Positions 1,147 through 56,643 are shown, counted from the first letter of the stretch. The stretch: 64,000 bases of DNA from Desulfococcaceae bacterium HSG9 (GCA_030378005.1 JAUCGF010000085.1:1-64000), one strand, 5' to 3'. Made by a program: numbers and translations. The notes: generated from the sequence alone by a model not told the origin.

Positions 1147-1148
1147 AA

Positions 1149-1205
1149 TGTGGAATTCGGAATGTGGAATTCGGAATTCTACATTCCGCACTCCGAATTC
1201 CCAAT
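1149..1205. repeat. GAATTC/GGAATG palindromic repeat cluster
   Basis: Tandem and inverted copies of TGGAATTCGG and GGAATGTGG followed by the complementary TACATTCCG and CTCCGAATTC. The whole stretch can fold on itself. It fills the gap between the convergent TRAP receptor and rfbC genes and belongs to the family found inside the lipid synthase gene at 26.4-29.6 kb and at 51.9 kb. Confidence 0.85.
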
Positions 1206-1207
1206 TA

Positions 1208-9455: not shown

Positions 9456-11558
9456 AGGTGTGATGTACGCAGGCCCGCCCCAGTTCAGCACCGGCGCAAA
9501 AGCCGGAATTTGCAGGCGCAGAAACGTTTCCGCAGTTTCCCGGACATCACGGTACATGGTTCGGTCACCTCTGATCACCATAACCACCACATCTGAGTGC
9601 ATTGCCAGATATTCCGTCAAATCGCTTTGTATAACCGGAATCGAATCGATTAAAATGAGGTCATAATCCTTTTTGGCAGTTGCCAGCAACATCTGAAAAA
9701 GCAAACTGGCTTGCCGGGATACGATTTCTCCGGATGAACACAGAATATCAACATTGCGCTCATGGTCGAAATAAATACAATTATGAAATTTTTCTTTGCC
9801 TTTGATATATTCTTCAATTCCGGGATGATCGGGGGCGATATCCATAATCTCCCGAAAAGCCGGATTCGCTGAATTGGCCTCGATAATCAATACCCGCGGC
9901 AGCATTTGACCGAGTAAATGAGCGGTGTTCAGCAAAATATGAGTGGTTCCGGTTTGAGATTCAAAACCGTTAAAAAGAAAAACCTGGCTTTCATTGCGCT
10001 CCCTATCACGCAATAAGTGCAAGGCCAGACTGCGAATCGCTTTAGAAGGATTCGCGTTAGGCGCATCTAGCGTGATTCTGGAAAACGGAATATCCCCGGT
10101 GCCGCGCTCAATAGGCCAGGTAGGCGGATGTCCCAGGGCATGCACCACATTTTTAGGGCTTCGGATACGATTATCTGAAAATTCGATAATAAACAGGAGC
10201 ACGCTAATGGCTCCGAACGGTAAAGCCAGGCACATCATAAATAGTTTTTTACTGTTGTCCCCGGCTTTACTTTTCGGCGGTCGAGCCGGCGTGGCTACCG
10301 ACACCCGGCCGGAAGCATTCGATTGCATTTCCAATTCGCTGATACGGGCGTGAACGCGAAACAGCAATTCGCGCGTGTGCCGGGCTTTAGCCTCTAATTG
10401 CTCTCCCTGAATCATGCGCACGGAATTTATTGAGGCCGCATTTTTGGCTTGTTTTAACTCCTTATCAAGCTGTTTTTCCGCTTTAATCAGCCCTTGATAA
10501 CGTGTTTCAGCCTTGATTGTGCGGACATCCATATCATACTGGCGTTTCCCGTAGATCACCACTTTCGCCAATCCCCGCACCTCTTCCAGCATATCCTGCT
10601 CATACTTGCGCATGGCCTTCATGCGTTCTTCGGTGTAAAGCCGGTCCTTATTATCCGTTGTCAACCCGTCAAACTTGGCGCGCAAGTTTTGCATCTGTTG
10701 GTAAGTCCATGACTGGGTTGAATCCAGGCCCCAGTCGTTGGCAACCATCTCCTCAACATGGGGTTGCATCGATATAGCCGTTATCTGTTTCTGTTCTTTA
10801 AGAATTTGTTTGTAAAGATTCTCGGCTTCAAGCCTTTGGATATGAGTGGAAACGCTTGAGTTCTGGAACTGCTCCATCTTTTTGTAATATAAATTAAATG
10901 ATTCGCCAAAGTTGCTGGTTCCGGATTTTTTAGCAATATCCTCAATTTTTTGCGTGTTTTCTTTCAGAGCTTGAGAAAGCTCTTTGTATTCTGCTTTCAA
11001 ATATTTAAGACGTTTATTATTTTTCGCGCGGTTTTCATCATCCATGATTTCGATATAAACATCCATAATGTGATTCAGAATTTCGGCCACACCGATTTCA
11101 GAATTTCCCTGAATAGCAAGATCAATCAAATGAGACCGAGAAATTGGCTTGACATAAAGGATGTTTGCCAGAATGGATGCGCAAGTCTCAACAGGAAGTC
11201 CTTTGATAAAAAGGGCATCCTTTTGTTCAGGTGTGAGGCGTTTAATCGCTTCCTCAAGGATGCTATTCTCTCGAATGCGTATCGCTTGCGTGCGGGCAAA
11301 ATCGGCATAGCGATTCAGGATTGAGGCTTCTTCGCCTTTGCCGATAATAACCCGAACTACGGGATCGATTCTTAATCGTGCAGACGCCTTATAGAACGGT
11401 TTGACACCCAACAGGGCAAAAGGCGCGAGAATAGTGAAGCCAAAATTGCCCACAAAAATAATGATCACGATATAACGGCGGACAAAACCGATAATATCAA
11501 CAGGCTTGCTTTTTTTGGTTCCCGGCAGAAGGACGCCGGGGGTTTCTTCAGAGGCCAT
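9393..11558 (-). CDS. Wzz/BY-kinase-like exopolysaccharide chain-length protein with degenerate P-loop
   Basis: Polysaccharide co-polymerase. Residues 1-60 hold a cytoplasmic tail and the first transmembrane segment; a long coiled-coil periplasmic region follows (about 170-400); a second transmembrane segment lies near 435-455 (LFMMCLALPFGAISVLLFIIEF); the rest is a BY-kinase or CpsD-like P-loop domain. The nucleotide site is broken: the Walker A position reads SQTGTTHIL, without the essential Lys, and Walker A' reads VLIIEANSANP where VLLIDAD is usual. Walker B (DLILIDSIP) is kept. There is no Tyr-rich tail; the end is LYRKFAGGVKRTD. So it probably keeps its structural role but lost autokinase activity. 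Neighbours: IVP-type protein and Wza. Confidence 0.85.
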   Translation of the reverse strand: MASEETPGVLLPGTKKSKPVDIIGFVRRYIVIIIFVGNFGFTILAPFALLGVKPFYKASARLRIDPVVRVIIGKGEEASILNRYADFARTQAIRIRENSILEEAIKRLTPEQKDALFIKGLPVETCASILANILYVKPISRSHLIDLAIQGNSEIGVAEILNHIMDVYIEIMDDENRAKNNKRLKYLKAEYKELSQALKENTQKIEDIAKKSGTSNFGESFNLYYKKMEQFQNSSVSTHIQRLEAENLYKQILKEQKQITAISMQPHVEEMVANDWGLDSTQSWTYQQMQNLRAKFDGLTTDNKDRLYTEERMKAMRKYEQDMLEEVRGLAKVVIYGKRQYDMDVRTIKAETRYQGLIKAEKQLDKELKQAKNAASINSVRMIQGEQLEAKARHTRELLFRVHARISELEMQSNASGRVSVATPARPPKSKAGDNSKKLFMMCLALPFGAISVLLFIIEFSDNRIRSPKNVVHALGHPPTWPIERGTGDIPFSRITLDAPNANPSKAIRSLALHLLRDRERNESQVFLFNGFESQTGTTHILLNTAHLLGQMLPRVLIIEANSANPAFREIMDIAPDHPGIEEYIKGKEKFHNCIYFDHERNVDILCSSGEIVSRQASLLFQMLLATAKKDYDLILIDSIPVIQSDLTEYLAMHSDVVVMVIRGDRTMYRDVRETAETFLRLQIPAFAPVLNWGGPAYITPLEKILDGLYRKFAGGVKRTD

Positions 11559-13296: not shown

Positions 13297-13358
13297 GGTG
13301 AAACGTGAATCCATGTTTCACGCATCACGCATCACGCATCACGCATCACGTTTCACTT
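13297..13358. repeat. GTGAAACG / CGCATCACG tandem palindromic repeat
   Basis: GTGAAACGTGAATCCATG followed by TTTCACGCATCACGCATCACGCATCACGCATCACGTTTCAC. The 9-base unit ATCACGCATC is repeated several times, so the copy number is probably variable. It fills the gap between wza and the duplicated membrane protein gene. Confidence 0.85.
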
Positions 13359-14649
13359 TAAATTGATAGCACCACCTCACTATCATGGCGCTTATACAAA
13401 TTGCGAGAGCGCACCCTGCTATCACATCAATTTTTGTGATTGGTTGTGGGAAAATGCCCGTAGGAATCAAACTGATGCCAGCGCCTGATTTTAAAAGATA
13501 AAAAACAAATAATGCGAAAACAACGATAATAGGCGCTGAAATCACAAAAAGAAAACAGACGTTAGCCAGTAAGTTGTTGTCTGACAATTTAGCGATGTTA
13601 CTACGCACTATATCGAAAATCCTTATCTGAAAAATAAGTATGAATGCGCTGATAAAAGCTCCGATTGCACATCCCACGATCAAATCTGTCATTGTAATTT
13701 TGGGAAAACAGGGAATATCACCCACAATGATAACGACGAGGCCCGCTTTTATCAAATAGAATGCCAATAGCATAAGGCCCGCGATAAGCGGACCGCCAAG
13801 AGAAACCCAAAAGCATAGGCTTGCCAGATGACTGTTTGTCGGCGATTGTTTGCCGCGTGCTTGATTTCGGTTATCTCGGCCCATAAGCAAAACAAAATAA
13901 TAATCACGCAAAACAGGGATATTGCCTCTGATGTCGATGGCATGTGTTTTTAGCGTTTTTTTTTGCCTCAGCACCGCTTTGACAGCCCCTATCTGATTAT
14001 TGTCCAGAGGCTCCTTTTTAAGAGTTGTTTTGATTTGCTTTACAGCACGTTTGGTATAGGCATTTTTTAAGAGTGCATCGCCTCCTTGCTTTTTTTTAAA
14101 GAGCGCTTTTCGCAAGGATACGGATAGAGTTATAAAGCCTGCGACAACTATCAAAATACATATTCCGGAAATAAGGTCAATTCCATATCCGTCCACACCA
14201 CACCAAAAGCATACGATAGTCCATACATGCTGCACTTCAGGCAGCATTTTCATTTTGTATTTTAAGAGGTAGAGAGGAAGCAGCGCGCCCAGGAAAAACA
14301 TAATCAACATGGTTGCATAGATTAAAAAAAAATTGATAGATAGCATATCCATCTTATTACGAATTTTTCTTGCCGTGTTTTTATGTTTACGCCGATCTTC
14401 ACCCGCAACAAAAACAAGATAATAATGTCGGCCAAAGAATGGGATATCACCCCGGATGTCAACCGGATGTTTCTTAAACGGTTTATTGTCCCGCATAACA
14501 TTTTTAATTGTTTTTTGTTGATTTTTGGATAATGAATTTTTAATTTCATTATCAATGGCGCACATAAAGCAATTTTCAAATTTCTTTTCGTTAGCAATGG
14601 TGCATTTAGCGCATTTTGCAAAGCCATCCGGAACGTTATCAGATTTCAT
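13339..14649 (-). CDS. Internally duplicated membrane protein with N-terminal CxxC pairs
   Basis: No function recognised. The N-terminus has two Cys pairs (CAKC about 13-16 and CFMC about 27-30) that could bind zinc. Two homologous halves follow, each with a soluble motif and then membrane segments: HPVDIRGDIPFFGRHYYLVFVAGEDRR (positions about 61-87, key residues DIRG, IP, YY, G.D.R) and HAIDIRGNIPVLRDYYFVLLMGRDNR (about 238-263). At least eight hydrophobic segments are visible (about 103-127, 141-175, 282-305, 317-345, 364-390, 402-425). The 3' end of the frame runs into the GTGAAACG repeat, and the last residues KVKRDA may be repeat-derived. It precedes wza, so it may belong to the surface polysaccharide block. 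Confidence 0.7.
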   Translation of the reverse strand: MKSDNVPDGFAKCAKCTIANEKKFENCFMCAIDNEIKNSLSKNQQKTIKNVMRDNKPFKKHPVDIRGDIPFFGRHYYLVFVAGEDRRKHKNTARKIRNKMDMLSINFFLIYATMLIMFFLGALLPLYLLKYKMKMLPEVQHVWTIVCFWCGVDGYGIDLISGICILIVVAGFITLSVSLRKALFKKKQGGDALLKNAYTKRAVKQIKTTLKKEPLDNNQIGAVKAVLRQKKTLKTHAIDIRGNIPVLRDYYFVLLMGRDNRNQARGKQSPTNSHLASLCFWVSLGGPLIAGLMLLAFYLIKAGLVVIIVGDIPCFPKITMTDLIVGCAIGAFISAFILIFQIRIFDIVRSNIAKLSDNNLLANVCFLFVISAPIIVVFALFVFYLLKSGAGISLIPTGIFPQPITKIDVIAGCALAICISAMIVRWCYQFKVKRDA

Positions 14650-19394: not shown

Positions 19395-19528
19395 TCGTCA
19401 GTTACAAGTTTTAAATTTAAAGTTTGAAGTTATTTCGTAACTACATGAATTCATTGAAACTAACAAGATTTGTGCCATTTTTTCACTTTCAATGATTTCA
19501 ATAACTTACAAGAACTTATGACTGACGA
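19395..19528. repeat. 134-bp palindromic element, copy A
   Basis: Begins CGTCAGTTACAAGTT and ends AACTTATGACTGACG; inner arms GAATTCATTGAAA and TTTCAATGATTTC. The whole unit can form a long imperfect hairpin. A shorter copy with the same arms lies at 46296-46400 and a half copy at about 55187-55232. It lies in the 379-base gap 19352-19730 after the phosphopantetheinyl transferase. Confidence 0.85.
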
Positions 19529-20738: not shown

Positions 20739-20799
20739 AACGTGATACTTGAAACGTGATGCGTGAAACGTGAAACGTGAAAGATGAAACATGAATTCA
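20719..20799. repeat. GTGAAACGTGATG tandem repeat across a gene boundary
   Basis: Six or so units of TGAAACGTGAT(A/G) and relatives. The array supplies the last codons and stop of the SpoIIM-like gene and, if the upstream ATG 20784 is used, the first codons of the RDD gene. Confidence 0.85.
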
Positions 20800-21672: not shown

Positions 21673-24600
21673 ATGACAACATTTCAAATCCTTCATATTT
21701 CCGACCTGCATATATCGGTAAAAGACAATTTTGACAGGTCGCTTGTGCTTGATCCTTTGATTGAGCGTGTCAAAAAAGATCGAGATAACGGCTTGAAGCC
21801 TGAAATTGTTGTTGTCAGCGGAGATATCGCTTTTCAAGGCCTGGCAAAAGAGTATGAGCTGGCTCAGGAATTTTTTGGTGATCTGCTTGAAGCGCTTGAG
21901 TTGGATGATGACCGCATTTTCATTGTTCCGGGAAATCACGATGTGAACCGTAAAAAGTACCGGCCATCGGATATCCCTCAATATGAAAATATGCGCCAAT
22001 TGAATGAAGAGCTTGAAAATTCCGATTTTCGGGCTGATCTGTTCAAGGGCATGAATGACTATTTCAATTATATGGAAGTTCACCACAAGCATTTAAAACT
22101 GTTAGATGAGCGTCTCGCGCCTTTTGTGAATATTTATGAAGCGGTCTGCGGTAAACGCATCGGTTTGGCAGGGTTGAATTCGGCCTGGATGTGCCGTAAA
22201 TTACCGGATGATAAAAAGGATGAAAAAAAGATTGCCTTGGGCGAATATCAAGTGAGCCAGGCGATGAAGCAATTAAATAAACTGGGAGAGACCGATCTAA
22301 TGATTGCTGTTTTTCACCATCCTTTGCAGTGGTTTTGGCAGAAAGACATGCAACGAAACCGGCATTATTTCAATAATACTGTTATCCTTTGCGGCCATCT
22401 GCATGACGCTGCCGGCGGTTATTTTAACGGCTTGGATGGCCGGTTTTATCAATTTCAGGCCGGCGGCGCCTATCTAAGCAGTGAATCGGATTGGCCCGCC
22501 CGATTCACTTATATCACATTTGATTGGAGCCAAAATCTGATCCGGCTGGATTTTCGAAAATTTGTAAGCCCCAAACGGCGTTGGAGCATTGACGGCGACA
22601 CCGGGGATGACGGCAAAAAATATTTTGAACTGCATCGTCAGGAAAGGATAGCTCCTCAGGTCGATGTGGCGCCTCTGCCGGATTTCCCTCCTGACTATCC
22701 ACAATGGATCAAGCACAATTTTGGTCACATGGACGCGGATAAATTGTACGGTAAAGGAGATGCCTTTCCACTGAGTCTGCCGGAAATATTTATTCCGCTT
22801 TATTGCGATGAACCGGCAGAGGATGTGGAAACCTTGATCGCCAAAAGCGATTATCTTTTGGCAGAAGGGCGTCCCGGTTCAGGAAAGACCACGCTTTTAA
22901 GACATCTGGCCTATTGCCTGATACCTGAAAACAGAGACCGTTTACAAACAGAGGGCCTGGCGGGTTATCTTCCCTTGTTGATTCGTCTGAGTGAGGTGAA
23001 CGAATTTTTTACTGGTCCGGCCATTCGGCAAAACCACAGACAGAATGCAGAAAACATTTTGGATTGGTTTTTTGAATTTAAAATGAGTGCTGCATTGAGC
23101 TTAACCATTGCCTCGGCTTTTATCAAAGCTGGAAAAGCGATCATTCTGTTAGACGGCCTGGATGAACTGTTACCCAAGCACAGGCAAACCGTTATAAATG
23201 CGTTTGTCGATTTAAGGATGCGTTACAAAGACTGTAAATTGGTTTGTACCAGTCGGCCCCACGGCATCAACGGCGCTGTTGTCAAGCATTTTGCCAACCG
23301 GCATATCAAAATTCTGGCGCTGAACCGCGAACAGGTGAATCTGTTTATCAATAAATGGTTTACCCATTTTTATCCCGGAACATCGGGCATTGGCCGCAAA
23401 AATGCGGATGCCATGATCAGTGCCATCCGCACGCATCCCGCTATCGACAAATTGACCGACACCCCGTTAATGCTCACCGCGATTTGCATCCTTTATCACG
23501 ACGGCAAAGAGCTTCCTGACCAACGCGCGGAATTGTATAAAAAATTTATTGACAATATGTTATACCGTCGCTTCAGTGATTCAGAGCGCGTGCATCAATA
23601 TTTAAAAACCCTGGCATTTGAGATGCATGAAAAAGGCGTAACGGCTGAAGACCGTAATTTTGCAGAACAGGTGCTGCAAGAGATTTATACTCGCGAACCG
23701 GAAGAAACCGTGCAGGTCTATAAAAGACGCATCCGGGCGCTGTTTGATGATATCGAACCGCGTTGCGGATTGTTGAAATTCGGCAATGGCCAATACAGCT
23801 TCTGGCATTTGACGTTCCAGGAATTTTTGTGCGCGGATTACATCAAAGACAATCATTCGGATCAGGTTAAGGCGATTGCCCCTTATTGGGAAAACAAATG
23901 GTACCGCGAGGTTGTTCAACTCTATATCGGTTATGTGAGCATCGAAAATAAACAGACGGCCAATGATATTATCGCCTCGGTTATTGATTTCCCTGATGAA
24001 CCGCCCTTTAAACGCTGGCGTTTGGCGGGGCATGCTATGCTGGATATTCATCCGAACAGAAGAATTGACGGCGTTGTGGCGAATGTTAAAAACCGTATGC
24101 TGGAAATTATTGATTCAGAGGCAACGCCCGTGATACGCGCCGAAAGCGGTGAAATTTTGGGCTGGCTGGGTGATGATCGGGATTTGAAGAAATTCATTCC
24201 CATTTCGACGGGTGAGTATCCTATCGAAAAAGGGAAACGTTTTATTAAGGCGTTTGAAATCGCTGAATATCCGGTTACAAATACGTGGTTTGCCGAATTC
24301 ATTGCAGCGGGCGGGTATGAAAATCTGGAATCCTGGAGCCTTGAGGGCAAAAAATGGCTTAAAGATAGGGACGCAAAACAGCCTAAATATTGGAATAACC
24401 GAAAGTGGAAATGCCCCAACGCGCCGGTGGTGGGCGTGTGCTGGTATGAGGCCGATGCTTTCTGCCGTTGGTTGACCTTGAAAAGGCAAGATGGTTGGGT
24501 TTACCGGTTGCCGGATGAAAATGAATGGGAGGCGGCCGCATCTGGATTCGATAAACGGGAGTATCCGTGGGGGGAATGGAAAGAGGGGCATTGCAATTCA

Positions 24601-24903
24601 GGAGAAAGCGAAATAAAGAAAACATCACCGGTCGGTATTTTTAAAAACGGTAAGACGCCTGAAGGCGCAGTCGATATGGCGGGCAATGTTTGGGAGTGGA
24701 CATGTTCTGATGATAAATCTGAAAATATCCTTGATGATTTTACTTATGAGGAGGAACTGAAAAAAGTTCTGTCACTGCCGGTTTTGCGCGGCGGGTCGTG
24801 GGCCTCGGCCATAATGGCATGCGCTGCGCTAACCGGTCTCAGGTACGACCCGAACGACAGAAACGATGATGTTGGATTTCGTTGTTCCAAGACTAAAATT
24901 TAA
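21673..24903 (+). CDS. Calcineurin-like phosphoesterase - NACHT NTPase - FGE-sulfatase (C-type lectin fold) protein
   Basis: 1076 residues with three recognisable parts. Residues 1-300 are a metallophosphoesterase with every metal motif: ISDLHIS, VVSGDIAF, VPGNHDVN, FHHPLQW and CGHLHD. Residues about 380-720 are a NACHT-type STAND NTPase: P-loop GRPGSGKTTL with Lys405, Walker B ILLDGLDEL with Asp497, then CTSRPHG. Residues 740-830 look like HEAT-type helices. Residues 840-1076 are an FGE-sulfatase/SUMF1 domain: FEIAEYPVTNTWFAEF, RLPDENEWEAAA, GNVWEWTCSDD, LRGGSW and GFRC. The build is that of bacterial NLR-like conflict proteins: effector, switch, sensor (inference). It stands alone with no transcriptional partner. 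The C-terminal 40 residues resemble a retroelement-diversified tail. Confidence 0.88.
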   Translation: MTTFQILHISDLHISVKDNFDRSLVLDPLIERVKKDRDNGLKPEIVVVSGDIAFQGLAKEYELAQEFFGDLLEALELDDDRIFIVPGNHDVNRKKYRPSDIPQYENMRQLNEELENSDFRADLFKGMNDYFNYMEVHHKHLKLLDERLAPFVNIYEAVCGKRIGLAGLNSAWMCRKLPDDKKDEKKIALGEYQVSQAMKQLNKLGETDLMIAVFHHPLQWFWQKDMQRNRHYFNNTVILCGHLHDAAGGYFNGLDGRFYQFQAGGAYLSSESDWPARFTYITFDWSQNLIRLDFRKFVSPKRRWSIDGDTGDDGKKYFELHRQERIAPQVDVAPLPDFPPDYPQWIKHNFGHMDADKLYGKGDAFPLSLPEIFIPLYCDEPAEDVETLIAKSDYLLAEGRPGSGKTTLLRHLAYCLIPENRDRLQTEGLAGYLPLLIRLSEVNEFFTGPAIRQNHRQNAENILDWFFEFKMSAALSLTIASAFIKAGKAIILLDGLDELLPKHRQTVINAFVDLRMRYKDCKLVCTSRPHGINGAVVKHFANRHIKILALNREQVNLFINKWFTHFYPGTSGIGRKNADAMISAIRTHPAIDKLTDTPLMLTAICILYHDGKELPDQRAELYKKFIDNMLYRRFSDSERVHQYLKTLAFEMHEKGVTAEDRNFAEQVLQEIYTREPEETVQVYKRRIRALFDDIEPRCGLLKFGNGQYSFWHLTFQEFLCADYIKDNHSDQVKAIAPYWENKWYREVVQLYIGYVSIENKQTANDIIASVIDFPDEPPFKRWRLAGHAMLDIHPNRRIDGVVANVKNRMLEIIDSEATPVIRAESGEILGWLGDDRDLKKFIPISTGEYPIEKGKRFIKAFEIAEYPVTNTWFAEFIAAGGYENLESWSLEGKKWLKDRDAKQPKYWNNRKWKCPNAPVVGVCWYEADAFCRWLTLKRQDGWVYRLPDENEWEAAASGFDKREYPWGEWKEGHCNSGESEIKKTSPVGIFKNGKTPEGAVDMAGNVWEWTCSDDKSENILDDFTYEEELKKVLSLPVLRGGSWASAIMACAALTGLRYDPNDRNDDVGFRCSKTKI
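24781..24897 (+). other. Candidate variable region of a diversity-generating retroelement target
   Basis: The 3' end of the FGE domain reads LRGGSW - short unusual run - C - LRYDPNDRNDDVGFRC. In known DGR targets with this fold, the segment between GGSW and GFR is the variable repeat and is rich in codons derived from AAY. Here GAC, AAC, TAC, GAT and ATA codons alternate with invariant CCG, AGA and GTT GGA TTT CG. No reverse transcriptase and no template repeat is visible in the window, so this is a suggestion only. Confidence 0.4.
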
Positions 24904-24977: not shown

Positions 24978-25020
24978 AATAACTTGTAACTTTAAACTTA
25001 AAACTTGTAACTTCAAAAAC
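24978..25020. repeat. AACTTGTAACTT tandem repeat
   Basis: AACTTGTAACTTTAAACTTAAAACTTGTAACTTC directly before the start codon of the lipid synthase. No ribosome-binding site is visible here; the repeat occupies the place. Family also at 50.4, 55.0, 55.7 and 59.5 kb. Confidence 0.8.
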
Positions 25021-25022
25021 GT

Positions 25023-28000
25023 ATGAAAAAAAAAGCACCCATTGCCATCGTGGCGATGTCCGGCGTATTTCCCGGCGCGCCGGACTTAGCGACCTTTTGG
25101 CATAATATTATAAATAAGGTCAATACGGTTTGCGAATCATCCCTGAAACGATGGGGCGCGCCGCCTGAAACCATGTACAGACCGGTTCCGACGCCTGATA
25201 TGGCAATTTCCAAACGCGCCTGTCTGATTCGTAACTTCACATTTGACCCCTGCGGATTTGACATTGCTCCCGACTTGTTAAAAGACCTGGACCTGTTGTA
25301 TCATCTCGTGCTGCACGCCGGACGGGAAGCTATGGCCGGCCGCAAGGGCGATGAATCAGTTAAAATGCGCACAGGCGTTACCTTAGCCGCAATGGCATTG
25401 CCTACGGATTCCGCTTCTTTGCTCGCCAGAGAAGTGTTAGGCCGTGCTTTTGAAGCCCGCCTTTTAAACCAAAAACCATCCGAAACGAATGCAAGACTTT
25501 CTCGAACGCAGTGTTTGTCCGCTAAAGTGACCAGCCTGCCGGGCGCGTTATTGGCTCAGGCGTTGGGGCTTGGCGGCGGCAGTTTAACTTTGGATGCGGC
25601 TTGCGCTTCTTCTTTGTACGCGGTCAAACTGGCCTGTGATGAGCTGCACGCCGGGCGCGCGGACGCCATGCTGGCCGGCGGTGTGTCTCGCCCGGACTGC
25701 CTTTACACCCAAGTCGGGTTCAGTCAACTCAAAGCGCTTTCGCCTTCAGGGCGTTGCGCTCCTTTTGATGTGACCGCTGACGGTTTGGTGGTGGGGGAAG
25801 GCGTGGGGCTGCTGGTTTTAAAACGGCTTGATGACGCTTTACGCGATCAGGACAAAATTTTGGGCTTGATTCGGGGAATCGGTTTATCGAACGACATGCA
25901 GGGCAACTTGCTGGCTCCGGACAGCGAAGGCCAGCAGCGCGCGCTGCGTTACGCATATCAGGCCGCCGGATGGTCGCCTTCAGATGTTGATTTAATCGAA
26001 TGCCACGGCACCGGAACGCCATTGGGAGACGTTACCGAATTGCGCAGTTTACGTGAACTTTGGGGGGCTGACGGATGGAGCGAGGGACAATGCGCTATCG
26101 GTTCAGTCAAATCCATGATCGGACATCTTTTAACCGGCGCAGGCGCGGCCGGGCTGATCAAAATATTGCTGGCACTTCAACCTCCGGACGATAAAACCGC
26201 TCAGTTGCCGCCCTCTTTGCATTTTGACCGTGCGCCCAAAGACAGCCCGCTGCATGGAAGCCCGTTCAAAGTTCAATGTGAAACCCGGCCCTGGAACCGC
26301 CGCAACGACCAAACCCCGCGACGAGCGGCGATCAATGCTTTCGGTTTTGGCGGAATTAACGCCCATCTGTTAATAGAAGAATTCATGGCAAATGGGGAAT
26401 GCGGAATGGGGAATGCGGAGTTCAGAATGCGGAATTCCAAATTCCGAATTCCGAATTCCGAATTCCAACAAATTGCGATTGTGGGCATGGAAACGGTTTT
26501 CGGTCAGTTGACTTCGTTGAAACAATTTCAGGAGGCTGTTTTTAATGGCCGCACAGCAATCGGCAAGCGGCCGCCCCAAAGATGGCGCGGCAGTGATGCG
26601 CTGGCACGCTTTTTAATGGAAGATACGGAACTTTACGGCAGTTTTATGGAGGAAGTGGCGCTTGCAATCGGCGAATTTCACATTCCGCCCAACGAAATCC
26701 CCGATATTTTGGTTCAACATCTTCTGATGCTCAAAGTATGCGCGCAGGCAATGCGTGACGCCGGTTTGCCGTTGCGCGCCAACCGTCCTGATATGGGCGT
26801 TATCATCGGCCTTGAATTTGATTATGAAGCCACCGATTTTCATCTGCGCTGGGATATGCCCAATCATATCGAAACCTGGCTTAAACAGAGCGATTTGCAA
26901 TTGAGTGACACTGCCAAAGCGGATTGGCTTGAAAAACTGAAAGACGCAATCGGGCCTCCTCTGACCCATGCCCGCACATTGAACGCTTTACCGAGCATTG
27001 CGGCCAGTCGGATTGCACGGGAATTTCGTCTCGGCGGCCCTGGTTTTGTGGTTTCATGCGAAGCCGCATCAGGACTGCGGGCGCTGGAAATTGGCGTGCG
27101 CGCCCTGCAAAATGGCGAAATGGATACGGTTTTGATTGGCGCGGTGGATCTGACAGGCGATGTTCGCAATCTGATTATGACGGATAAGCTAAATCCGTTT
27201 AGCCGTTCTGACCAAATCCGTCCGTTTGATCAGGCGGCCGATGGCACGCTTCCGGGCGAAGGAGCCGTTGCAATGGTTCTGATGCCCCTTGACCGGGCTT
27301 TAAAAGATGGCCATCGGATTTATGCTACGATTAAGGGCATCGGTGCCGCATCCGGCCCAATTGGGAATTTAGAATCAGGAATTCGGAATTCCACTGATGC
27401 GTATCAACACGCTTTCAAGCGAGCGGTTCGGGACGCTGACGTTTCAGCATCAGCGATCAGTTATTTAGAAACACACGGAAGCGGTCTGGAATTGGGAGTT
27501 GGAAATGCGGAATGTGGAATTCCGCACGTAGCAATTGGAACTGTCGAACCGATTATCGGACATACCGGTGCGGCGGCAGGATTGGCGTCGCTGGCCAAAA
27601 CCGCACTTTGTTTGTATCATCAAATTATACCGCCTCTGCCCGGTTATGTCACACCGGCAGACAAGGCTTGGGCAAACGGAGCTTTTTTTATGCCTCAAGC
27701 GCCTCAGTACTGGATACGCGACCGCAATCAAGGCCCTCGTCATGCGGCTGTCAACGCTTTTACATCCGATGGCAATTATTCAAGTGTGATTCTGGAAGGG
27801 TACGAAGCAGATCAACGGGCGGATGAGCGTAATGAACTTAAAAAACCGCTTGGGGATATGGACGCGGGCCTTTTCGTAATCAGCGGTGCCGACCAAGATG
27901 AGTTGCTATCGGAGCTTGATCGGTTTGAACAGTTTCTTGCCGAGCGCCTTTCCGCGGATTTGCCATTAGAATCGGTCGCCCGTAACTGGTATCAGCGCAA

Positions 28001-31000
28001 CCGCTCCCAAACAGATCGGCAAGAAGTTGTCACCATCGTGGCGGCTGATCACCAGAAACTTCGTCAACGGGTCAATAACGCCCGCCGAACCGTTCTATCC
28101 GGTGTTCGCGCTTTGATGAGCGCCGGCGGAGTCGCTTACAACCCTCTTCCGCTTGGGAAAAAGGGAGAAATCGCTTTTGTCTTTCCCGGCTCCGGCAATC
28201 ACTATGTTGGCATGGGACGCGAAATCGGCGCTGTCTGGCCCGAAATTCTTAAAAAAATTGACGCCGGCACAGAGCGATTAAAAAGCCAAATGCGGCCGCA
28301 TTGCTATGTTCCCTGGCGCACCGATTGGCGTCCGGGATGGGAAAAAGACGCCTATTCTGAAATTATCGCCGATCCTTTGAATACAATTTTCGGACAAGTG
28401 GTGCATGGCGGCGTGATGGCCGGCCTGATGAATCATTTCGCGATTCAACCTTCGGCTGTTATCGGATACAGTCTGGGTGAATCAGCCGGTCTTTTCGCAT
28501 CAGGCGCATGGCCGGAGCGTGGCGTAATGTTGAAACGGATGCTGGATACGGATTTATTCACCACGCAGTTGGCAGGCCCTTGCCTGGCGGCGCGCCAGGC
28601 GTGGAATATACCCGAACATGAGGCGGTTGATTGGCGTGTGGCGTTGGTTAACCGCTCCGCTGATACGGTTGGTGATGCGATTCGTGATTTGGCAACCGCC
28701 CGATTGTTAATTATCAACACACCCGAACAATGCGTTATTGGTGGTATGCGCCGGGATATTGAAGCCGCAATCCAAAAACTGAAATGCGAAGCGGTGTTTT
28801 TGGACGGCGTTGTTACGGTTCATTGTGATGCGGCCCAACCTGTGGCCGATGCTTATCGGGAGCTGCATCATTTTCCGGTTACGCCGCCGCCGGGAATCCG
28901 TTATTACAGTTGCGCCTGGGGAGAGCCGTACAAGTTGACTTCGGCTAACGCCGCTGATTCTATTCGGGATCAGGCTACCGGCGGATTTGATTTTCCCAAA
29001 CTGATTCAGCGGGCTTATCACGATGGCGTCCGCATTTTTGTGGAAATGGGTCCTCATAACTCTTGTACGCGCATGATTACAAAAATTTTAGGAGATCAAC
29101 CTTTTATGGCCGTGTCCGCCGATATGCGCGGCGAAAGCGATTATCTGACGGTTTTAAAATGTCTCGGCGCGTTGATTGCCGAAGGTGTGCCTGCAAACAT
29201 GGAAAGCCTTGAAAAATTATACGGCGATGAAATACGTCCCCAAGCAACCGAAATCAGCGCAACATCCGCAAAGGGAAAAATAATCACGCGCATATTAGGC
29301 GGGGCTGCACCTGAACCGATGCTGCCTGAAATTGCCTCAAATGTAACACCAAAAGACGTTCCAAGCACTCCCAATGTAACGCGGAAGGCCGTTCCGCGTA
29401 CTGAAACCTCCGCATTACAAAACGATCTGATCGAATCCCAAACAGCCAGTATGAACGCCACCGCCCAGGCGCATCGTCAGTTTCTAAAATTTTCCGCTGA
29501 TGCCGGACGTTCTTATGCCGATGCTTTTGCCTTGCAAAATCGCTTGCTTGCACATCAAATTCAAAATGGGGAATACGAAATTCAGAATTCAGAATTCCCC
29601 ATTCCCCATTCGGCTCCGGCGTTTACCCGTGAACAATGTATGGAATTCGCTATCGGATCGGTAGCCAACGTTCTTGGCCCTGATTTTGCTGTGGTTGATA
29701 CTTACGATGTGCGGGTGCGTCTGCCGGATGAACCGTTGATGCTGGCGGATCGCATCATTTCGGTACAAGGGGAAAAAAGATCGTTGACATCGGGCTGCGT
29801 TATCACTGAGCATGACGTACTCCCTGATGCCTGGTACTTGGATGGCTGTCGTGCGCCGGTGTGTATCGCTGTGGAAGCCGGCCAGGCCGATCTGTTTCTG
29901 TGTTCCTATTTGGGTATCGATCATGTTGTCAAAGGCCGCAGAGCTTATCGTTTATTAGACGCCAAAGTTAAATTTCATCGCGGTTTGCCTCGTCCGGGGG
30001 AAGTGATTCGGTATGAAATACATATCCAAAAGTTCGTGCGCCAGGGCGACACTTACCTGTTTTTCTTTAATTTTGAAGGGCATATTGATGGCGCGCCGCT
30101 GATTACCATGACAGATGGATGCGCCGGTTTTTTTACCAAAGAAGAAGTTACGCGCGCCGGCGGTTTGGTTCTGACTGCCGCTGAAACCGAGCCGCAACCG
30201 GTCGATAAAAATTATAAATGGCTATCGCCCATGCCAACGGAGCCGGAATCTTATGACGATACCCAAATTGACGCGCTCAGGCGAGGTGATTTGGCATCCT
30301 GTTTCGGTTCCGAATTTGATGGCGTTAAACCGGCGGCGTCAATACGTCTGCCCGGCGGACGCATGAAATTGATTGACCGGGTGCTTCGTTTAGATGCCCG
30401 CGGCGGCCGTTTCGGACTCGGCCAGATTTGCGCTGAAGCGGATATTCATCCGGATGATTGGTTTTTGACCTGCCATTTTATCGACGACATGGTGATGCCC
30501 GGAACGCTGATGTATGAATGCTGCGCCCATACGCTCCGGGTGTTTCTATGGCGTCTCGGATGGGTGACGGATAAGCCCGGCGTCTGTTATGAACCGGTTT
30601 GCGAAGTTCAAAGCGTGCTGAAATGTCGCGGCCCGGTAACGCCATCCACTAAAAAAGTGCTTTATCAGGTGGATATCCGTGAAATCGGGACACAGCCGGA
30701 ACCATACATGATTGCCGATGCGCTTATGTTTGTTGATGATCTGCCGATGGTGGCGTTTAAAGATATGTCGATGCAAATGAGCGGTGTGACGCATGATGAA
30801 TTGGAAAATTTTTGGAAAAAGAAATTGCCAGCGCAGACCATCAGGCATGATCAGGCTCCCCTTTTTGACCGTCATCACATTTTGGAATTTGCCCAAGGAA
30901 AGCCATCGGCCGCATTTGGCAAACTTTATGAACCTTTTGACACCAAATTTATCGCCCGTCTGCCGCGACCGCCTTATGCTTTTCTTGATCGCATCGTGGC

Positions 31001-31970
31001 GATTGAACCGCAAGCCTGGGTTTTGAAACCGGACGGATGGATTGAAGCCGAATACGACATCCCGCCTTCAGAATGGTACTTTGCCGCCGAACGTTCATCC
31101 ATTATGCCGTATTGCGTTTTGTTGGAAATCGCTTTGCAGCCCTGTGGCTGGTTGGCGGCTTATCTCGGCTCGGCCCTTAAAATAGACCGGCCGCTGCGAT
31201 TCCGTAATTTGGGAGGCAAAGCGGTTTTGCATCAACTGGTCACTGCTGAATCCGGAACGGTTACGATGCGTGTTCGTTTGACCAAAGTAGCCGAAGCCGG
31301 TGCCATGATTATTGAACACTTTGATTTTAAAGTGCTGCAAGGGCAAAATGAGATATATACCGGAAACACCTATTTCGGCTATTTCACCCAGGAAGCGCTG
31401 GCTGAACAGGCCGGTATTCGGGGCGCATCCGAAAAAGCGTATTCGCCGAATGAACTTCTGGCATCTGACATTCAACATCGAACATTGAATTCGGAAGGAG
31501 ATACGAACGGCCTGGCCATGCCTGATAAAACGCTGCGCATGATTGACACGATTGATGTTTACCAGCCCCAAGGCGGCCCGCATAAACTCGGCTTTATTCG
31601 AGGGATAAAACAGGTTGATCCGGAAGAGTGGTTTTTCAAAGCTCATTTTTACCAGGACCCGGTATGTCCGGGTTCATTGGGCATCGAGTCATTTATTCAA
31701 TTACTGAAATATATCGCGCGTGAACGTTGGCCGCACCTGATTGATAACAGCCGTTTTGAGATGCTTACCCTGGAGAGCCATGAATGGGTTTATCGCGGCC
31801 AGATTATTCAAACAAACCGAAAAATCGAAGTTGAAGCGGTTGTTACCGAAGTTCGCGAAACACCCGTCCCCACACTGTTGGCTGAAGGCTATTTAAAAGT
31901 GGATGGTTTGTTTATTTATCAGATGGATAATTTTGGATTGCGGGTTGTGCCTCACGAAAATATTAATTAA
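25023..31970 (+). CDS. KS-CLF-AT-DH polyunsaturated-fatty-acid-type synthase (Pfa3/PfaC-like)
   Basis: 2315 residues, cytoplasmic. KS 1-450 has the full triad: Cys194 (DAACASS), His328 (HGTGTPLGD), His368 (KSMIGHL). A second KS-like domain (about 484-940) has Ala681 in the Cys position (VSCEAASG) and HGSG, so it is a chain-length-factor-type partner. The acyltransferase (about 1045-1390) has FVFPGSGNHYVGMG and nucleophile Ser1150 (GYSLGES). Four FabA-like hot-dog units follow: units 2 and 4 keep His1818/Glu1832 (CHFIDDMVMPGTLMYE) and His2208/Glu2222 (AHFYQDPVCPGSLGIE); units 1 (about 1600) and 3 (about 2015) lack the His and are structural. The order matches myxobacterial Pfa3 without its terminal acyltransferase. 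No ACP, KR or ER is present here, so PfaA- and ER-like partners must be elsewhere. Four in-frame GAATTC repeats interrupt it. Confidence 0.9.
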   Translation: MKKKAPIAIVAMSGVFPGAPDLATFWHNIINKVNTVCESSLKRWGAPPETMYRPVPTPDMAISKRACLIRNFTFDPCGFDIAPDLLKDLDLLYHLVLHAGREAMAGRKGDESVKMRTGVTLAAMALPTDSASLLAREVLGRAFEARLLNQKPSETNARLSRTQCLSAKVTSLPGALLAQALGLGGGSLTLDAACASSLYAVKLACDELHAGRADAMLAGGVSRPDCLYTQVGFSQLKALSPSGRCAPFDVTADGLVVGEGVGLLVLKRLDDALRDQDKILGLIRGIGLSNDMQGNLLAPDSEGQQRALRYAYQAAGWSPSDVDLIECHGTGTPLGDVTELRSLRELWGADGWSEGQCAIGSVKSMIGHLLTGAGAAGLIKILLALQPPDDKTAQLPPSLHFDRAPKDSPLHGSPFKVQCETRPWNRRNDQTPRRAAINAFGFGGINAHLLIEEFMANGECGMGNAEFRMRNSKFRIPNSEFQQIAIVGMETVFGQLTSLKQFQEAVFNGRTAIGKRPPQRWRGSDALARFLMEDTELYGSFMEEVALAIGEFHIPPNEIPDILVQHLLMLKVCAQAMRDAGLPLRANRPDMGVIIGLEFDYEATDFHLRWDMPNHIETWLKQSDLQLSDTAKADWLEKLKDAIGPPLTHARTLNALPSIAASRIAREFRLGGPGFVVSCEAASGLRALEIGVRALQNGEMDTVLIGAVDLTGDVRNLIMTDKLNPFSRSDQIRPFDQAADGTLPGEGAVAMVLMPLDRALKDGHRIYATIKGIGAASGPIGNLESGIRNSTDAYQHAFKRAVRDADVSASAISYLETHGSGLELGVGNAECGIPHVAIGTVEPIIGHTGAAAGLASLAKTALCLYHQIIPPLPGYVTPADKAWANGAFFMPQAPQYWIRDRNQGPRHAAVNAFTSDGNYSSVILEGYEADQRADERNELKKPLGDMDAGLFVISGADQDELLSELDRFEQFLAERLSADLPLESVARNWYQRNRSQTDRQEVVTIVAADHQKLRQRVNNARRTVLSGVRALMSAGGVAYNPLPLGKKGEIAFVFPGSGNHYVGMGREIGAVWPEILKKIDAGTERLKSQMRPHCYVPWRTDWRPGWEKDAYSEIIADPLNTIFGQVVHGGVMAGLMNHFAIQPSAVIGYSLGESAGLFASGAWPERGVMLKRMLDTDLFTTQLAGPCLAARQAWNIPEHEAVDWRVALVNRSADTVGDAIRDLATARLLIINTPEQCVIGGMRRDIEAAIQKLKCEAVFLDGVVTVHCDAAQPVADAYRELHHFPVTPPPGIRYYSCAWGEPYKLTSANAADSIRDQATGGFDFPKLIQRAYHDGVRIFVEMGPHNSCTRMITKILGDQPFMAVSADMRGESDYLTVLKCLGALIAEGVPANMESLEKLYGDEIRPQATEISATSAKGKIITRILGGAAPEPMLPEIASNVTPKDVPSTPNVTRKAVPRTETSALQNDLIESQTASMNATAQAHRQFLKFSADAGRSYADAFALQNRLLAHQIQNGEYEIQNSEFPIPHSAPAFTREQCMEFAIGSVANVLGPDFAVVDTYDVRVRLPDEPLMLADRIISVQGEKRSLTSGCVITEHDVLPDAWYLDGCRAPVCIAVEAGQADLFLCSYLGIDHVVKGRRAYRLLDAKVKFHRGLPRPGEVIRYEIHIQKFVRQGDTYLFFFNFEGHIDGAPLITMTDGCAGFFTKEEVTRAGGLVLTAAETEPQPVDKNYKWLSPMPTEPESYDDTQIDALRRGDLASCFGSEFDGVKPAASIRLPGGRMKLIDRVLRLDARGGRFGLGQICAEADIHPDDWFLTCHFIDDMVMPGTLMYECCAHTLRVFLWRLGWVTDKPGVCYEPVCEVQSVLKCRGPVTPSTKKVLYQVDIREIGTQPEPYMIADALMFVDDLPMVAFKDMSMQMSGVTHDELENFWKKKLPAQTIRHDQAPLFDRHHILEFAQGKPSAAFGKLYEPFDTKFIARLPRPPYAFLDRIVAIEPQAWVLKPDGWIEAEYDIPPSEWYFAAERSSIMPYCVLLEIALQPCGWLAAYLGSALKIDRPLRFRNLGGKAVLHQLVTAESGTVTMRVRLTKVAEAGAMIIEHFDFKVLQGQNEIYTGNTYFGYFTQEALAEQAGIRGASEKAYSPNELLASDIQHRTLNSEGDTNGLAMPDKTLRMIDTIDVYQPQGGPHKLGFIRGIKQVDPEEWFFKAHFYQDPVCPGSLGIESFIQLLKYIARERWPHLIDNSRFEMLTLESHEWVYRGQIIQTNRKIEVEAVVTEVRETPVPTLLAEGYLKVDGLFIYQMDNFGLRVVPHENIN
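26387..26465. repeat. GAATTC/GGAATG repeat in frame, KS-CLF linker
   Basis: Units of GGGGAATGCGGAATG and AATTCCGAATTCCG translated as a Asn/Glu/Phe/Arg-rich peptide (codons 455-482) between the KS and the chain-length-factor domain. It falls at a domain boundary, so it may be tolerated as a linker. Confidence 0.9.
27358..27396. repeat. GAATTC repeat in frame, inside chain-length-factor domain (site 1)
   Basis: TTGGGAATTTAGAATCAGGAATTCGGAATTCC, translated as IGNLESGIRNS at about residues 780-790, between the IKGIG strand and the AYQHAFKRA helix, a surface loop in ketosynthases. Confidence 0.85.
27487..27530. repeat. GAATTC repeat in frame, inside chain-length-factor domain (site 2)
   Basis: GAATTGGGAGTTGGAAATGCGG and AATGTGGAATTCCGC, translated as LELGVGNAECGIPH at about 822-835. 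The distance between the two catalytic-position His motifs (His818 and His847) is 29 residues against 40 in the KS of the same protein, so the repeat stands in place of part of the fold rather than being added to it. Confidence 0.85.
29565..29614. repeat. GAATTC repeat in frame, AT-DH linker
   Basis: AATGGGGAATACG, AATTCAGAATTC and CCCCATTCCCCATTC, translated as QNGEYEIQNSEFPIPHS at about 1515-1531 in the linker between the acyltransferase and the first hot-dog unit. Outer arms GGGGAAT and ATTCCCC are complementary. Confidence 0.88.
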
Positions 31971-46295: not shown

Positions 46296-46400
46296 CTCGT
46301 CAGTTTCAAGTTATTTCGTAACTGCCTGAATTCATTGAAACTCAAAAATTTGTATCATGTTTTCACTTTCAATGATTTCAATAACTTATAACTGGCGAGG
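46296..46400. repeat. 105-bp palindromic element, copy B
   Basis: CTCGTCAGTTTCAAGTTATTTCG at one end and AACTTATAACTGGCGAGG at the other; inner GAATTCATTGAAA / TTTCAATGATTTC arms. It matches copy A at 19395-19528 apart from an extra TTTTAAATTTAAAGTTTG stretch in copy A. Confidence 0.85.
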
Positions 46401-50426: not shown

Positions 50427-50500
50427 AAAGTTACAAATTTTAGTTTAAAGTTACAAATTATTTCATAACATCTTGTAACTTGTAACTTGTAACTTCAAAC
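50427..50500. repeat. AAAGTTACAAATTTTAG / AACTTGTAACTTGTAACTT repeat
   Basis: Four to six units of (T)AACTTGTAACTT and its complement between the MoaD-like gene and gdhA. Confidence 0.85.
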
Positions 50501-50503
50501 TTA

Positions 50504-51853
50504 CTAAACCAAGCCCTGATCCAGCATGGCGTCCACAACTTTGACAAAACCGGCGATATTGGCACCGACAACGTAGTTGCCTTTCGCGCCATATTGTTCA
50601 GATGCTTCCAAACTGGTTTTATGAATGCTTTTCATAATCATTTTCAAGCGTTCATCCAACTCTTCACGGGTCCAGGCCATACGCATGCTGTTTTGAGTCA
50701 TTTCCAAGCCGGAAACCGACACGCCGCCAGCATTGGCCGCTTTACCCGGCCCGTATAGCAGTTTATTATCTAAAAAGATATTAATGCCCTCAATCACGGT
50801 GGGCATATTGGCTCCTTCGCTCACCAATCCGACTCCGTTATTTACTAAATTCTGGGCATCTTTGGCATTAATTTCATTTTGGGTGGCCGATGGAAAAGCG
50901 CAATCCGCTTTGTGATTCCAAAGGGGATTATAATCTGAAGCGTGATCAACCGGTGTATAAACGGCATCCGTGTATTTTTCACAGTATTCTTTAACGCGGC
51001 CGCGCCGTACATTTTTAAGCACCATTAAAAAATCAAGTTTTTCTCGGTCCACACCCGCTTCGTCAAAAACATATCCGGATGTATCCGAAAAAGTAACTGT
51101 TTTAGCGCCTAAATCCAGCAATTTTTCGATAGTGTATTGGGCGACATTGCCAGAACCGGACACCAGGCATGTTTTGCCTTCCAACGTATCATCACGCGTC
51201 GCCAGCATTTCTGCGGCAAAATAAACCGACCCATAGCCGGTGGCTTCCGGGCGAATAAAACTGCCGCCCCAGTTGAGACCCTTCCCCGTCAGAACACCGG
51301 TGAATTCATTGCACAGCTTTTTATACATTCCAAACAAATAGCCGATTTCCCGTGCGCCAACACCGATATCACCGGCCGGTACATCGGTGTTAGGGCCGAT
51401 ATGACGAAACAGTTCCGACATAAAGCTTTGACAAAAACGCATCACTTCATTGTCCGATTTTCCTTTGGCATCAAAGTCTGCTCCGCCTTTGCCACCGCCC
51501 ATCGGAATGGTGGTTAACGAGTTTTTAAACACCTGCTCAAAGGCCAGAAACTTCAGAATGCTCAGGTTCACTGACGGATGGAAGCGCAGCCCGCCTTTGT
51601 ACGGTCCGATAGCGCTGTTCATCTCAATACGGAATCCACGGTTCACATGGATTTCGCCCTGATCATCCATCCATGGCACACGAAACATAATCACTCTTTC
51701 CGGTTCAACCAGTCGTTCCAGAATTTTAGCGCTGCGGTATTCCGGGTTTTGGTCTAAAGCCGGCTGAATCGTTGCAACCACTTCGGAAACCGCTTGATGA
51801 AACTCTCTTTCGACCGGGTCTTTGTCTTTTACCAATTGAATAATGTTAGTCAT
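50504..51853 (-). CDS. gdhA: Glutamate dehydrogenase (NADP-type, hexameric)
   Basis: Makes glutamate from 2-oxoglutarate and ammonium. 449 residues: GPYKGGLRFHPSVNLSILKFLAFEQ (about 83-107, substrate Lys region), GGGKGGADFDAKGKSD (about 119-134), VPAGDIGVGAREIGYLFG (about 160-177), and the cofactor domain VSGSGNVAQYTIEKL (about 234). The length and the block spacing fit the NADP-dependent bacterial type. A very strong TAGGAGG site precedes the ATG by ten bases. Confidence 0.97.
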   Translation of the reverse strand: MTNIIQLVKDKDPVEREFHQAVSEVVATIQPALDQNPEYRSAKILERLVEPERVIMFRVPWMDDQGEIHVNRGFRIEMNSAIGPYKGGLRFHPSVNLSILKFLAFEQVFKNSLTTIPMGGGKGGADFDAKGKSDNEVMRFCQSFMSELFRHIGPNTDVPAGDIGVGAREIGYLFGMYKKLCNEFTGVLTGKGLNWGGSFIRPEATGYGSVYFAAEMLATRDDTLEGKTCLVSGSGNVAQYTIEKLLDLGAKTVTFSDTSGYVFDEAGVDREKLDFLMVLKNVRRGRVKEYCEKYTDAVYTPVDHASDYNPLWNHKADCAFPSATQNEINAKDAQNLVNNGVGLVSEGANMPTVIEGINIFLDNKLLYGPGKAANAGGVSVSGLEMTQNSMRMAWTREELDERLKMIMKSIHKTSLEASEQYGAKGNYVVGANIAGFVKVVDAMLDQGLV

Positions 51854-51877
51854 TTACTTAATTCCTCCTAAATATTT

Positions 51878-51934
51878 GGAATGGGGAAATCGGAATTCCG
51901 AACTCCGAATTCCCCCATTCCAAATTCCCCATTC
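51878..51934. repeat. GAATTC/GGAATGGGG palindromic repeat
   Basis: GGAATGGGGAAATCGGAATTCC at one side and GAATTCCCCCATTCC, AATTCCCCATTC at the other; a near-complete palindrome between gdhA and the gene upstream of it. Confidence 0.88.
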
Positions 51935-51945
51935 AGAAAAAGGCC

Positions 51946-55017: not shown

Positions 55018-55068
55018 TTTTCAGTTACAAGTTTTAAGTTTTAAGTTTTAAGTTTTAAGTTTACTGAA
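55018..55068. repeat. AAGTTTTAAGTTTTAAGTTTT tandem repeat
   Basis: Four units of TTTTAAG following CAGTTACAAG, in the AT-rich family TTAAAACTTGTAACTT, right at the start of the 768-base gap 55015-55782. Confidence 0.85.
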
Positions 55069-55580: not shown

Positions 55581-55740
55581 ATACTCAGTAGATGGAAATT
55601 TCAGGAGCGCAAAAATTAAGTGAAGCGATTTTTTGCATCCGGTTCCACCCGGAGGCTGGCGGATTCATGGGACGGCAAAAAATCGCTGCGCTTAATTTTT
55701 GCGCTCCATGCCGTATTTTCAGGCATTTTCCATCTACTGA
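55581..55740. repeat. 160-bp palindromic element with CAGTAGATG ends, copy 2
   Basis: Near-identical direct copy of 55326-55485. Both begin with ATACTCAGTAGATGG and end with CATCTACTGA. The differences lie mostly in the central third. Confidence 0.93.
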
Positions 55741-55744
55741 GTAA

Positions 55745-55781
55745 AACTTAAAACTTGTAACTTGTAACTTAAAACTTAAAA
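55745..55781. repeat. AAAACTTGTAACTTGTAACTT repeat
   Basis: Follows the second 160-bp palindrome directly and ends one base before the ATG of the YitT-like gene, so there is no room for a normal ribosome-binding site. Confidence 0.85.
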
Positions 55782-55782
55782 A

Positions 55783-56643
55783 ATGAAACAGTATCATCAA
55801 TATGTAGGTTCCATTTTGCGGAACCTGTTACTGATTACGTTAGGTTCAATCATTGTTGGCATTGGTTTGAAAGCGATTGCCCTGCCACAGGGATTCATAA
55901 CGGGCGGGGTTTCCGGTTTAGGCTTTTTGCTATACTATGCAACCGGTTGGATGACTCCTGGCGTATGGTATTTTATTATCAATATACCCATTTTTATCAT
56001 GGGATGGGTGTTTGTCAGCCGTCGCTTTTTTTTATACAGTCTTTACGGAATGGTGGCCCTGTCTCTGTCGATTGACTTGATCAATCTGCAAATACCCATT
56101 CATGACCCGATTTTGGCCGTTTTGGCAGCCGGAACGTTAATTGGCGCGGGTGTGGGGATTACACTGCATTCATTGGGGTCTCAAGGCGGCAGCGATATTA
56201 TTGCGATCATTCTGCATCAAAAATTCAACTTTAAAATAGGCAGCTTTCACCTGATATTCAATCTTATTTTGTTTGCTTGCAGTTTTAGCACCCTGACCTT
56301 GGATTTGGTGCTGTATTCTTTTGCGATGACCTTCATTATATCCAATGTGCTTGATTATGTTGTAACGATTTTCAATCAGCGTAAAATGGTTCTGATTATT
56401 TCGAAGGCCGTCGATGATATCGCCGCCACAGTCAATACGCGGTTACAACGCGGTTCGACTTTTATAAGCGGAGTCGGCGCTTTCACAAAACAGCCCAGAA
56501 CCATAATTTTAACGGTTGTACATAACCACCAACTCAAGCGACTTGAAGAAATTGTCTTTACATCAGACCCGGATGCCTTTATGATCACGGAAAACACGTT
56601 TAATGTCTTAGGCAAAGGATTTTCCAAACGCAAAATTTATTGA
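55783..56643 (+). CDS. YitT family membrane protein (DUF161/DUF2179)
   Basis: 286 residues. Five membrane segments lie in the first 200 residues (about 12-32, 45-66, 72-92, 105-130, 150-195), with the family motif GLKAIALPQGFITGGVSG and HSLGSQGGSDIIAIILH. The C-terminal cytoplasmic DUF2179 domain reads RGSTFISGVGAFTKQPRTIILTVV and FTSDPDAFMITENTFNVLGKGF. Function unknown; some members act as transporters. It is preceded directly by repeat sequence and followed after 12 bases by gph, probably one transcript. Confidence 0.92.
   Translation: MKQYHQYVGSILRNLLLITLGSIIVGIGLKAIALPQGFITGGVSGLGFLLYYATGWMTPGVWYFIINIPIFIMGWVFVSRRFFLYSLYGMVALSLSIDLINLQIPIHDPILAVLAAGTLIGAGVGITLHSLGSQGGSDIIAIILHQKFNFKIGSFHLIFNLILFACSFSTLTLDLVLYSFAMTFIISNVLDYVVTIFNQRKMVLIISKAVDDIAATVNTRLQRGSTFISGVGAFTKQPRTIILTVVHNHQLKRLEEIVFTSDPDAFMITENTFNVLGKGFSKRKIY

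Follow-up and report, generated by a model that had tools for sequence, protein, structure and literature searches.

How can a DNA repeat that lies mostly between genes be read through, in frame and at four places, inside a large conserved enzyme? The question is raised by a 64,000-nucleotide stretch of Desulfococcaceae bacterium HSG9 (GCA_030378005.1 JAUCGF010000085.1:1-64000; hereafter the window), which corresponds to contig C58 of a metagenome-assembled genome (6.61 Mb, 197 contigs) and encodes a lipid synthase carrying GAATTC-type repeats. The host order is Desulfobacterales; its near relatives are named Desulfobacterales or Desulfobacteraceae, and the congener used for comparison is a Desulfobacterales bacterium. 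A preliminary description had taken the repeats for palindromic elements recalling those of Rickettsia. We find that their common feature is a tandem seven-base unit, not a palindrome, and that heptamer repeats of a non-coding type appear to build protein linkers in the synthase. Most probably, heptamer arrays resembling short tandemly repeated repetitive (STRR) sequences have spread through the genome, and stop-free arrays survive in tolerant linkers.

The open reading frame (ORF) at 25023-31970 matches the Pfam families ketoacyl-synt, Ketoacyl-synt_C and FabA (four matches), with the ketosynthase (KS) motif DAACASS at residue 191 and the acyltransferase (AT) motif GYSLGE at residue 1148. Pfam matches, motifs and a confident model of the KS and chain-length factor (CLF) domains (predicted template modelling score, pTM, 0.90) agree on the order KS-CLF-AT-dehydratase (DH) on a single polypeptide, by which PfaBC-like secondary lipid synthases are recognized, and on these sequence-based grounds we assign the ORF to that group. 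Full-length orthologues are present across Desulfobacterales, and comparison with the congener (nonsynonymous divergence dN 0.118, synonymous divergence dS 0.661) points to purifying selection on the product. The same domain fusion is described for the deltaproteobacterial PfaBC-type synthases of types C, I and K of Shulse and Allen (PMC3098273); unlike these, the present enzyme has four FabA-type stretches, and heptamer-built linkers go unmentioned for them in the excerpted text of that paper. The synthase, its repeat sites and the two intergenic copies of the same class are as follows.

25023..31970, plus strand: PfaBC-like synthase of 2315 aa, KS-CLF-AT-multiple FabA-type DH; carries the arrays.
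26387..26470, plus strand: site 1, KS-CLF linker (aa ~456-483), ~84 nt; GGAATNN array, then inverted NNATTCC array; peptide NGECGMGNAEFRMRNSKFRIPNSEF.
27365..27393, plus strand: site 2, CLF loop (aa ~782-790); two-unit GGAATTC array; peptide NLESGIRNS.
27488..27525, plus strand: site 3, CLF loop (aa ~822-834); GGAATGY/GGAATTC units; peptide LGVGNAECGIPH.
29562..29614, plus strand: site 4, AT-DH linker (aa ~1514-1530); fold-back array; peptide QNGEYEIQNSEFPIPHS.
1147..1206, no strand assigned: intergenic GGAATTC-class copy; hairpin.
51874..51940, no strand assigned: intergenic GGAATTC-class copy; hairpin.

Coordinates and translation bear out what had been proposed from the sequence, namely four in-frame GAATTC-type repeats, two of them in domain linkers (sites 1 and 4) and two in the CLF (sites 2 and 3), with the same class recurring between genes near 1.15 and 51.9 kb. 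The window holds nine occurrences of GGAATTCGG against 0.97 expected, a count attained in none of 100 shuffles. Folding predicts long hairpins at sites 1 and 4 and short stems at sites 2 and 3, which comprise two to three units each. The only Rfam match in the window is a tRNA, and no Rfam RNA family matches at the repeat sites, which rules out such a family as their identity. A possible, weak fifth site, TTCAACATCGAACATTGAATTC, lies at 31466-31494, where the sequence between DH domains is variable and that of the congener is related but different.

Genome-wide counts identify the period as the defining property. Within 1.55 Mb of the genome, roughly half of it picked for holding GGAATTC pairs, 46 arrays have period 7, compared with ten of period 6, five of period 9 and 0-1 for each of periods 5, 8, 10, 11 and 13, period 14 being a harmonic of 7. 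A looser count over 950 kb not picked for the repeat returned 25 arrays of period 7, 12 of period 6 and 0-3 of periods 4, 5, 8, 10 and 11; the excess also appears in the window and in relatives. Coding sequence makes up 82% of the sample, yet 24 of these 25 arrays lie outside genes or at gene edges, and relatives behave alike. Over-representation of a seven-base unit relative to other lengths, together with dispersed and mainly intergenic placement, is what distinguishes heptameric simple sequence repeats and STRR sequences. Several unit classes coexist, AACTTNN being the commonest, GGAATTC the second and TTCACGY represented by few arrays; lengths run from 29 to >200 nt, with no common ends and differing units. 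GGAATTC-class arrays often flip from GGAATNN to NNATTCC, giving hairpins, but fold-back is not general: an inverted partner array lies within 150 bp for only 5 of the genome's 34 GGAATTC-type array segments. The underlying unit is a tandem heptamer and not the fixed palindrome of the preliminary description.

Over-represented heptamers and dispersed heptamer arrays are known from other bacteria, as GGGNATC in Xanthomonas and Nostoc (PMC4692102) and TAACTGA in Beggiatoaceae (PMC4679880); the latter gives one repeating peptide on translation and is tolerated at protein peripheries (PMC4679880). A polymerase-footprint idea for the seven-base preference is among those cited in PMC4679880. The arrays described here share with STRR and other heptameric repeats, including the cyanobacterial ones, the seven-base unit and dispersed, mostly intergenic tandem arrays. 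They differ in that many units coexist, some of them folding back, in that a stop-free class lies internal to conserved housekeeping genes, and in that one megasynthase is a recurrent array site across an order.

The unit length also explains why the reading frame survives. Because 7 equals 1 modulo 3 and three units make 21 nt, an array gives the same heptapeptide in each frame, so that phase is irrelevant and only stop codons and total length modulo 3 matter. On translation, all three frames of one strand of a GGAATTC array yield a single cyclic heptapeptide, GIRNSEF, and those of the opposite strand EFRIPNS. It follows that stop-free units should enter genes and stop-bearing units should not. 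GGAATTC has no stop on either strand, and the translated examples of AACTTNN and ACGCATC have a stop on one. In the sampled genome, with genes called by a purpose-made hexamer-based caller, genes contain 17 of the 30 stop-free arrays and 2 of the 44 that bear stops (P=5e-7), a contrast that is partly built in, since an in-frame stop within an array would end the ORF; stop-free arrays do enter genes. Stop trinucleotides in coding arrays number 0, 13 and 14 in frames 1, 2 and 3, respectively. In one orthologous synthase (L104) with the stop-bearing unit AACCAGT, every in-frame TAA position has become AAA or CAA, and frames 2 and 3 mostly retain TAA. Frame keeping had been read as a sign of selection for a working product or of very recent insertion. 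The first half agrees with the dN and dS values above; the second is unnecessary, as the modulo-3 arithmetic and the loss of frame-breaking copies in essential genes require neither recency nor a special insertion device. As a separate observation, two ORFs meet at an array at 9638-9714 of locus L065, a candidate case of a gene broken by an array.

Other genes of the genome show what insertion looks like. In WaaA, a 90-nt repeat encoding ~30 residues is a clean in-frame insertion; its flanks align directly with those of the congener and of 18 other relatives, in all of which the site is empty. In PBP1A, a clean in-frame insertion of 39 nt lies between the transglycosylase and transpeptidase domains, and there too neither the congener nor any of 18 other relatives has the repeat. 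TruB has an array in common with the congener at one site, the two lengths differing by exactly 21 nt, and a second array that lengthens its C-terminus beyond the congener's stop codon. As a side observation, a hybrid histidine kinase (locus L056, 6846-10430) carries a GAATTC-type array in its receiver domain (aa ~1034-1065), where the Pfam receiver match ends ahead of the array.

At the synthase sites, the picture is different. The congener's synthase is 82% identical, and its sequence at sites 1, 2 and 4 is unrelated, with a length that may be similar or different: at site 1 the linker, though unrelated, is of much the same length, and at site 2 sequence has been replaced, the present synthase having a net +9 nt against the congener. 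At site 3 a different heptamer array, CGAACGC/CGAACTC, occupies the same place. The congener thus excludes a simple clean insertion, given net lengths of +3, +9 and negative values and the unrelated sequence, and the comparison indicates that the repeat replaced linker or loop sequence, or that sequence there has turned over. The expectation of insertions bounded exactly by the repeat is borne out in WaaA and PBP1A and not in the synthase, where site 1 faces unrelated sequence and site 3 another array. No repeat-free homologue with the same peptide was found for sites 1, 2 and 4. Just upstream of site 3, at window position 27485 (aa ~822), the CLF lacks ~16 residues, including an EDxxExxAL motif, that are kept by the congener and nearly all homologues.

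In-frame loop insertions in housekeeping genes, with empty sites in relatives and hairpin-shaped copies, are also what a mobile palindromic element of the Rickettsia palindromic element (RPE) kind would leave, that is, a discrete element of fixed type inserting into genes and intergenic DNA alike. RPEs and their Wolbachia counterparts (WPEs) likewise enter coding sequence in frame at solvent-exposed sites, orthologues being empty or holding another element, and RPE-4, RPE-6 and RPE-7 have been reported as different elements at one gene site (PMC3767692). The earlier comparison with RPEs is apt in this behaviour and breaks down on sequence: RPEs are 100-150 bp families of defined sequence, whereas the arrays here are open-ended, of no defined length or ends, always of period 7 from 29 to >200 nt, built from many units across the order, mostly direct tandems in orthologues, and engaged in replacement besides insertion. 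Only WaaA and PBP1A, not the synthase sites, show the in-frame insertion with empty sites typical of RPEs. Membership of the RPE families is excluded by length and lack of consensus, the host being a member of Desulfobacterales, not Rickettsiales; an element merely of that kind seems to us unlikely.

The recurrence of arrays in orthologues sets the synthase apart. In 42 orthologous ORFs, which include duplicate or split records, 39 arrays have period 7 and none has period 5, 6 or 8-11. They recur in a CLF loop and in the linkers that join KS to CLF, AT to DH and one DH to the next, with units that differ by species (among them AGGTTGC, AAAATCC, AAGGTTC, AATCCCC, AAAATTC, AAAACTC, AGAGGTC and AACCCCG), and the majority are direct tandems, not palindromes. 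With linkers defined solely from 22 array-free homologues, 26 arrays fall in 18.8 kb of linker versus 9 in the remaining 217 kb (P=4e-21). Arrays are almost absent from 719 kb of other coding sequence in relatives: of the two counted, one belongs to the synthase and the second to TruB of the congener. Two orthologues that are 85% identical (L097 and L105) share a five-unit array, its unit being AAAATTC in the former and AAAACTC in the latter.

Such enrichment could mean that the synthase recruits arrays adaptively, selection favouring flexible linkers adjustable in steps of 21 nt, or seven residues. Array density is 1.39/kb in synthase linkers against 0.18/kb in intergenic DNA, a ~8-fold difference, although regulatory constraint may depress the intergenic value, and in three orthologues (L102-L104) the AT-DH linkers are almost entirely array (74-109 aa) and have turned over rapidly at 86-89% identity. 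However, 22 of 37 orthologues are array-free with linkers of similar length, and the same arrays, stops included, are common in intergenic DNA, so that their source is a process at the DNA level. We therefore regard adaptive turnover as less probable than passive tolerance, though worth keeping in view. Similarly, it is a minority option that dispersed heptamer arrays keep supplying new inter-domain linkers to the PfaBC synthases of Desulfobacterales because linkers built in this way are favoured, a DNA-level generator being made frame-safe by the seven-base unit. Selection of heptads at the protein level as the source of the period is ruled out by the same period in stop-bearing intergenic arrays.

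Structure prediction is consistent with flexible segments. In the KS-CLF model, the predicted local distance difference test score (pLDDT) falls below 50 at aa 459-475, 781-789 and 819-832, which overlap sites 1-3, and in a C-terminal stretch. In the AT-DH model, residues 432-445 (aa 1516-1529), overlapping site 4, have pLDDT <50; the pTM of this model is 0.49, relative domain placement is uncertain, and further low-confidence stretches without array occur, the longest at 316-379. The array segments are thus predicted to be unstructured and the remaining fold confident. Borg amino-acid tandem repeats (aaTRs) are comparable in that tandem repeats in the DNA give rise to disordered stretches of protein on which coding selection is strong (PMC9879509); Borg units in ORFs are all divisible by three (PMC9879509), whereas here the unit is seven and the frame is held through the 21-nt superperiod.

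As to how arrays move, the palindromic copies could suggest repetitive extragenic palindromic (REP) elements, which are tagged palindromes of 20-40 bp mobilized by a cognate Y1 transposase (RAYT/TnpA_REP), and Y1_Tnp matches number four in this genome and occur in 27 of 30 genomes searched. Yet a genome without such a match (G012, 83% complete) has three different heptamers arrayed in its synthase (L049); G009 and G023 also have no match, G010 with 24 matches shows no marked excess of the GAATTC-class pattern, and period-7 tandem structure is foreign to REPs. REP-type mobilization is accordingly very unlikely, and a Y1 transposase as dispersal agent is not supported. Even less credible is an artefact of metagenome assembly and binning. 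Nearly all the genomes are metagenome-assembled, and one contig (L091, 1-134) opens with 18 perfect GAAACTT units, from which long heptamer arrays may break assembly; but in independent assemblies the same linkers carry arrays of differing units, arrays are also present in a genome of two contigs, on one measuring 4.07 Mb (L236), and stop avoidance depends on frame.

The spread and tolerance of heptamer arrays thus remains our preferred explanation. The synthase repeats would be copies of a dispersed, degenerate and often folded-back GGAATTC array, one of several classes in the genome. Arrays may arise and grow in 7-nt steps by slippage-type expansion and then disperse between loci. Those with stop-free heptamers are tolerated in genes at loops, termini or inter-domain linkers as long as three divides the net length, tolerance probably acting as the main filter. 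In the synthase the linkers would be such places; orthologues across the order show them filled time and again with different heptamers, which would be translated as what is predicted to be a flexible linker peptide. Direct support comes from the period-7 excess, the relation of stop class to location, the clean in-frame insertions at sites empty elsewhere, and the varied heptamers at the same linkers; the 21-nt difference in TruB, the concentration in linkers, the 0/13/14 stops, the TAA changes in L104, the L097/L105 variants and the low-confidence array segments within confident models point the same way. Several considerations weigh against it: plain tolerance does not predict a ~8-fold excess over intergenic DNA, so preference or selection may act; L102-L104 and L097/L105 share ancestry, leaving fewer independent events; survivorship partly accounts for the lack of frame-1 stops inside an ORF; low pLDDT in the array segments also reflects few aligned homologues there; and the dispersal engine enters the argument as a conjectured step.

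Within the open-access literature searched, what is new is the combination of a stop-free seven-base array inside conserved enzymes with one synthase's linkers variously filled across an order, though an earlier description is possible. The case offers a concrete route from a non-coding-type repeat to protein, through a unit that is free of stops, indivisible by three in length and read identically in every frame. The orthologues form a natural series in which one linker is rewritten with different units, making linker tolerance, repeat turnover and the cause of the bacterial seven-base preference directly testable.

The window contains six further heptamer arrays of other classes.

13310..13360, no strand assigned: TTCACGY/ATCACGC array; gene edge.
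20750..20796, no strand assigned: AAACGTG-class array; gene edge.
24979..25007, no strand assigned: AACTTNN-class array; intergenic, immediately upstream of the synthase ORF.
50466..50504, no strand assigned: AACTTGT-class array; intergenic.
55021..55067, no strand assigned: AAGTTTT-class array; intergenic.
55740..55784, no strand assigned: AAAACTT-class array; intergenic.

Directly upstream of the synthase, 21673-24903 encodes a fusion protein with metallophosphatase, NACHT and FGE-sulfatase domains. A long inverted repeat unrelated to the heptamers, GGAGCGCAAAAATTAAGTGAAGCG, is present in two copies (55349-55452 and 55604-55707) within one intergenic stretch, and a pair of related inverted repeats around TGAATTCATTGAAACT lies at 19437-19509 and 46327-46380.

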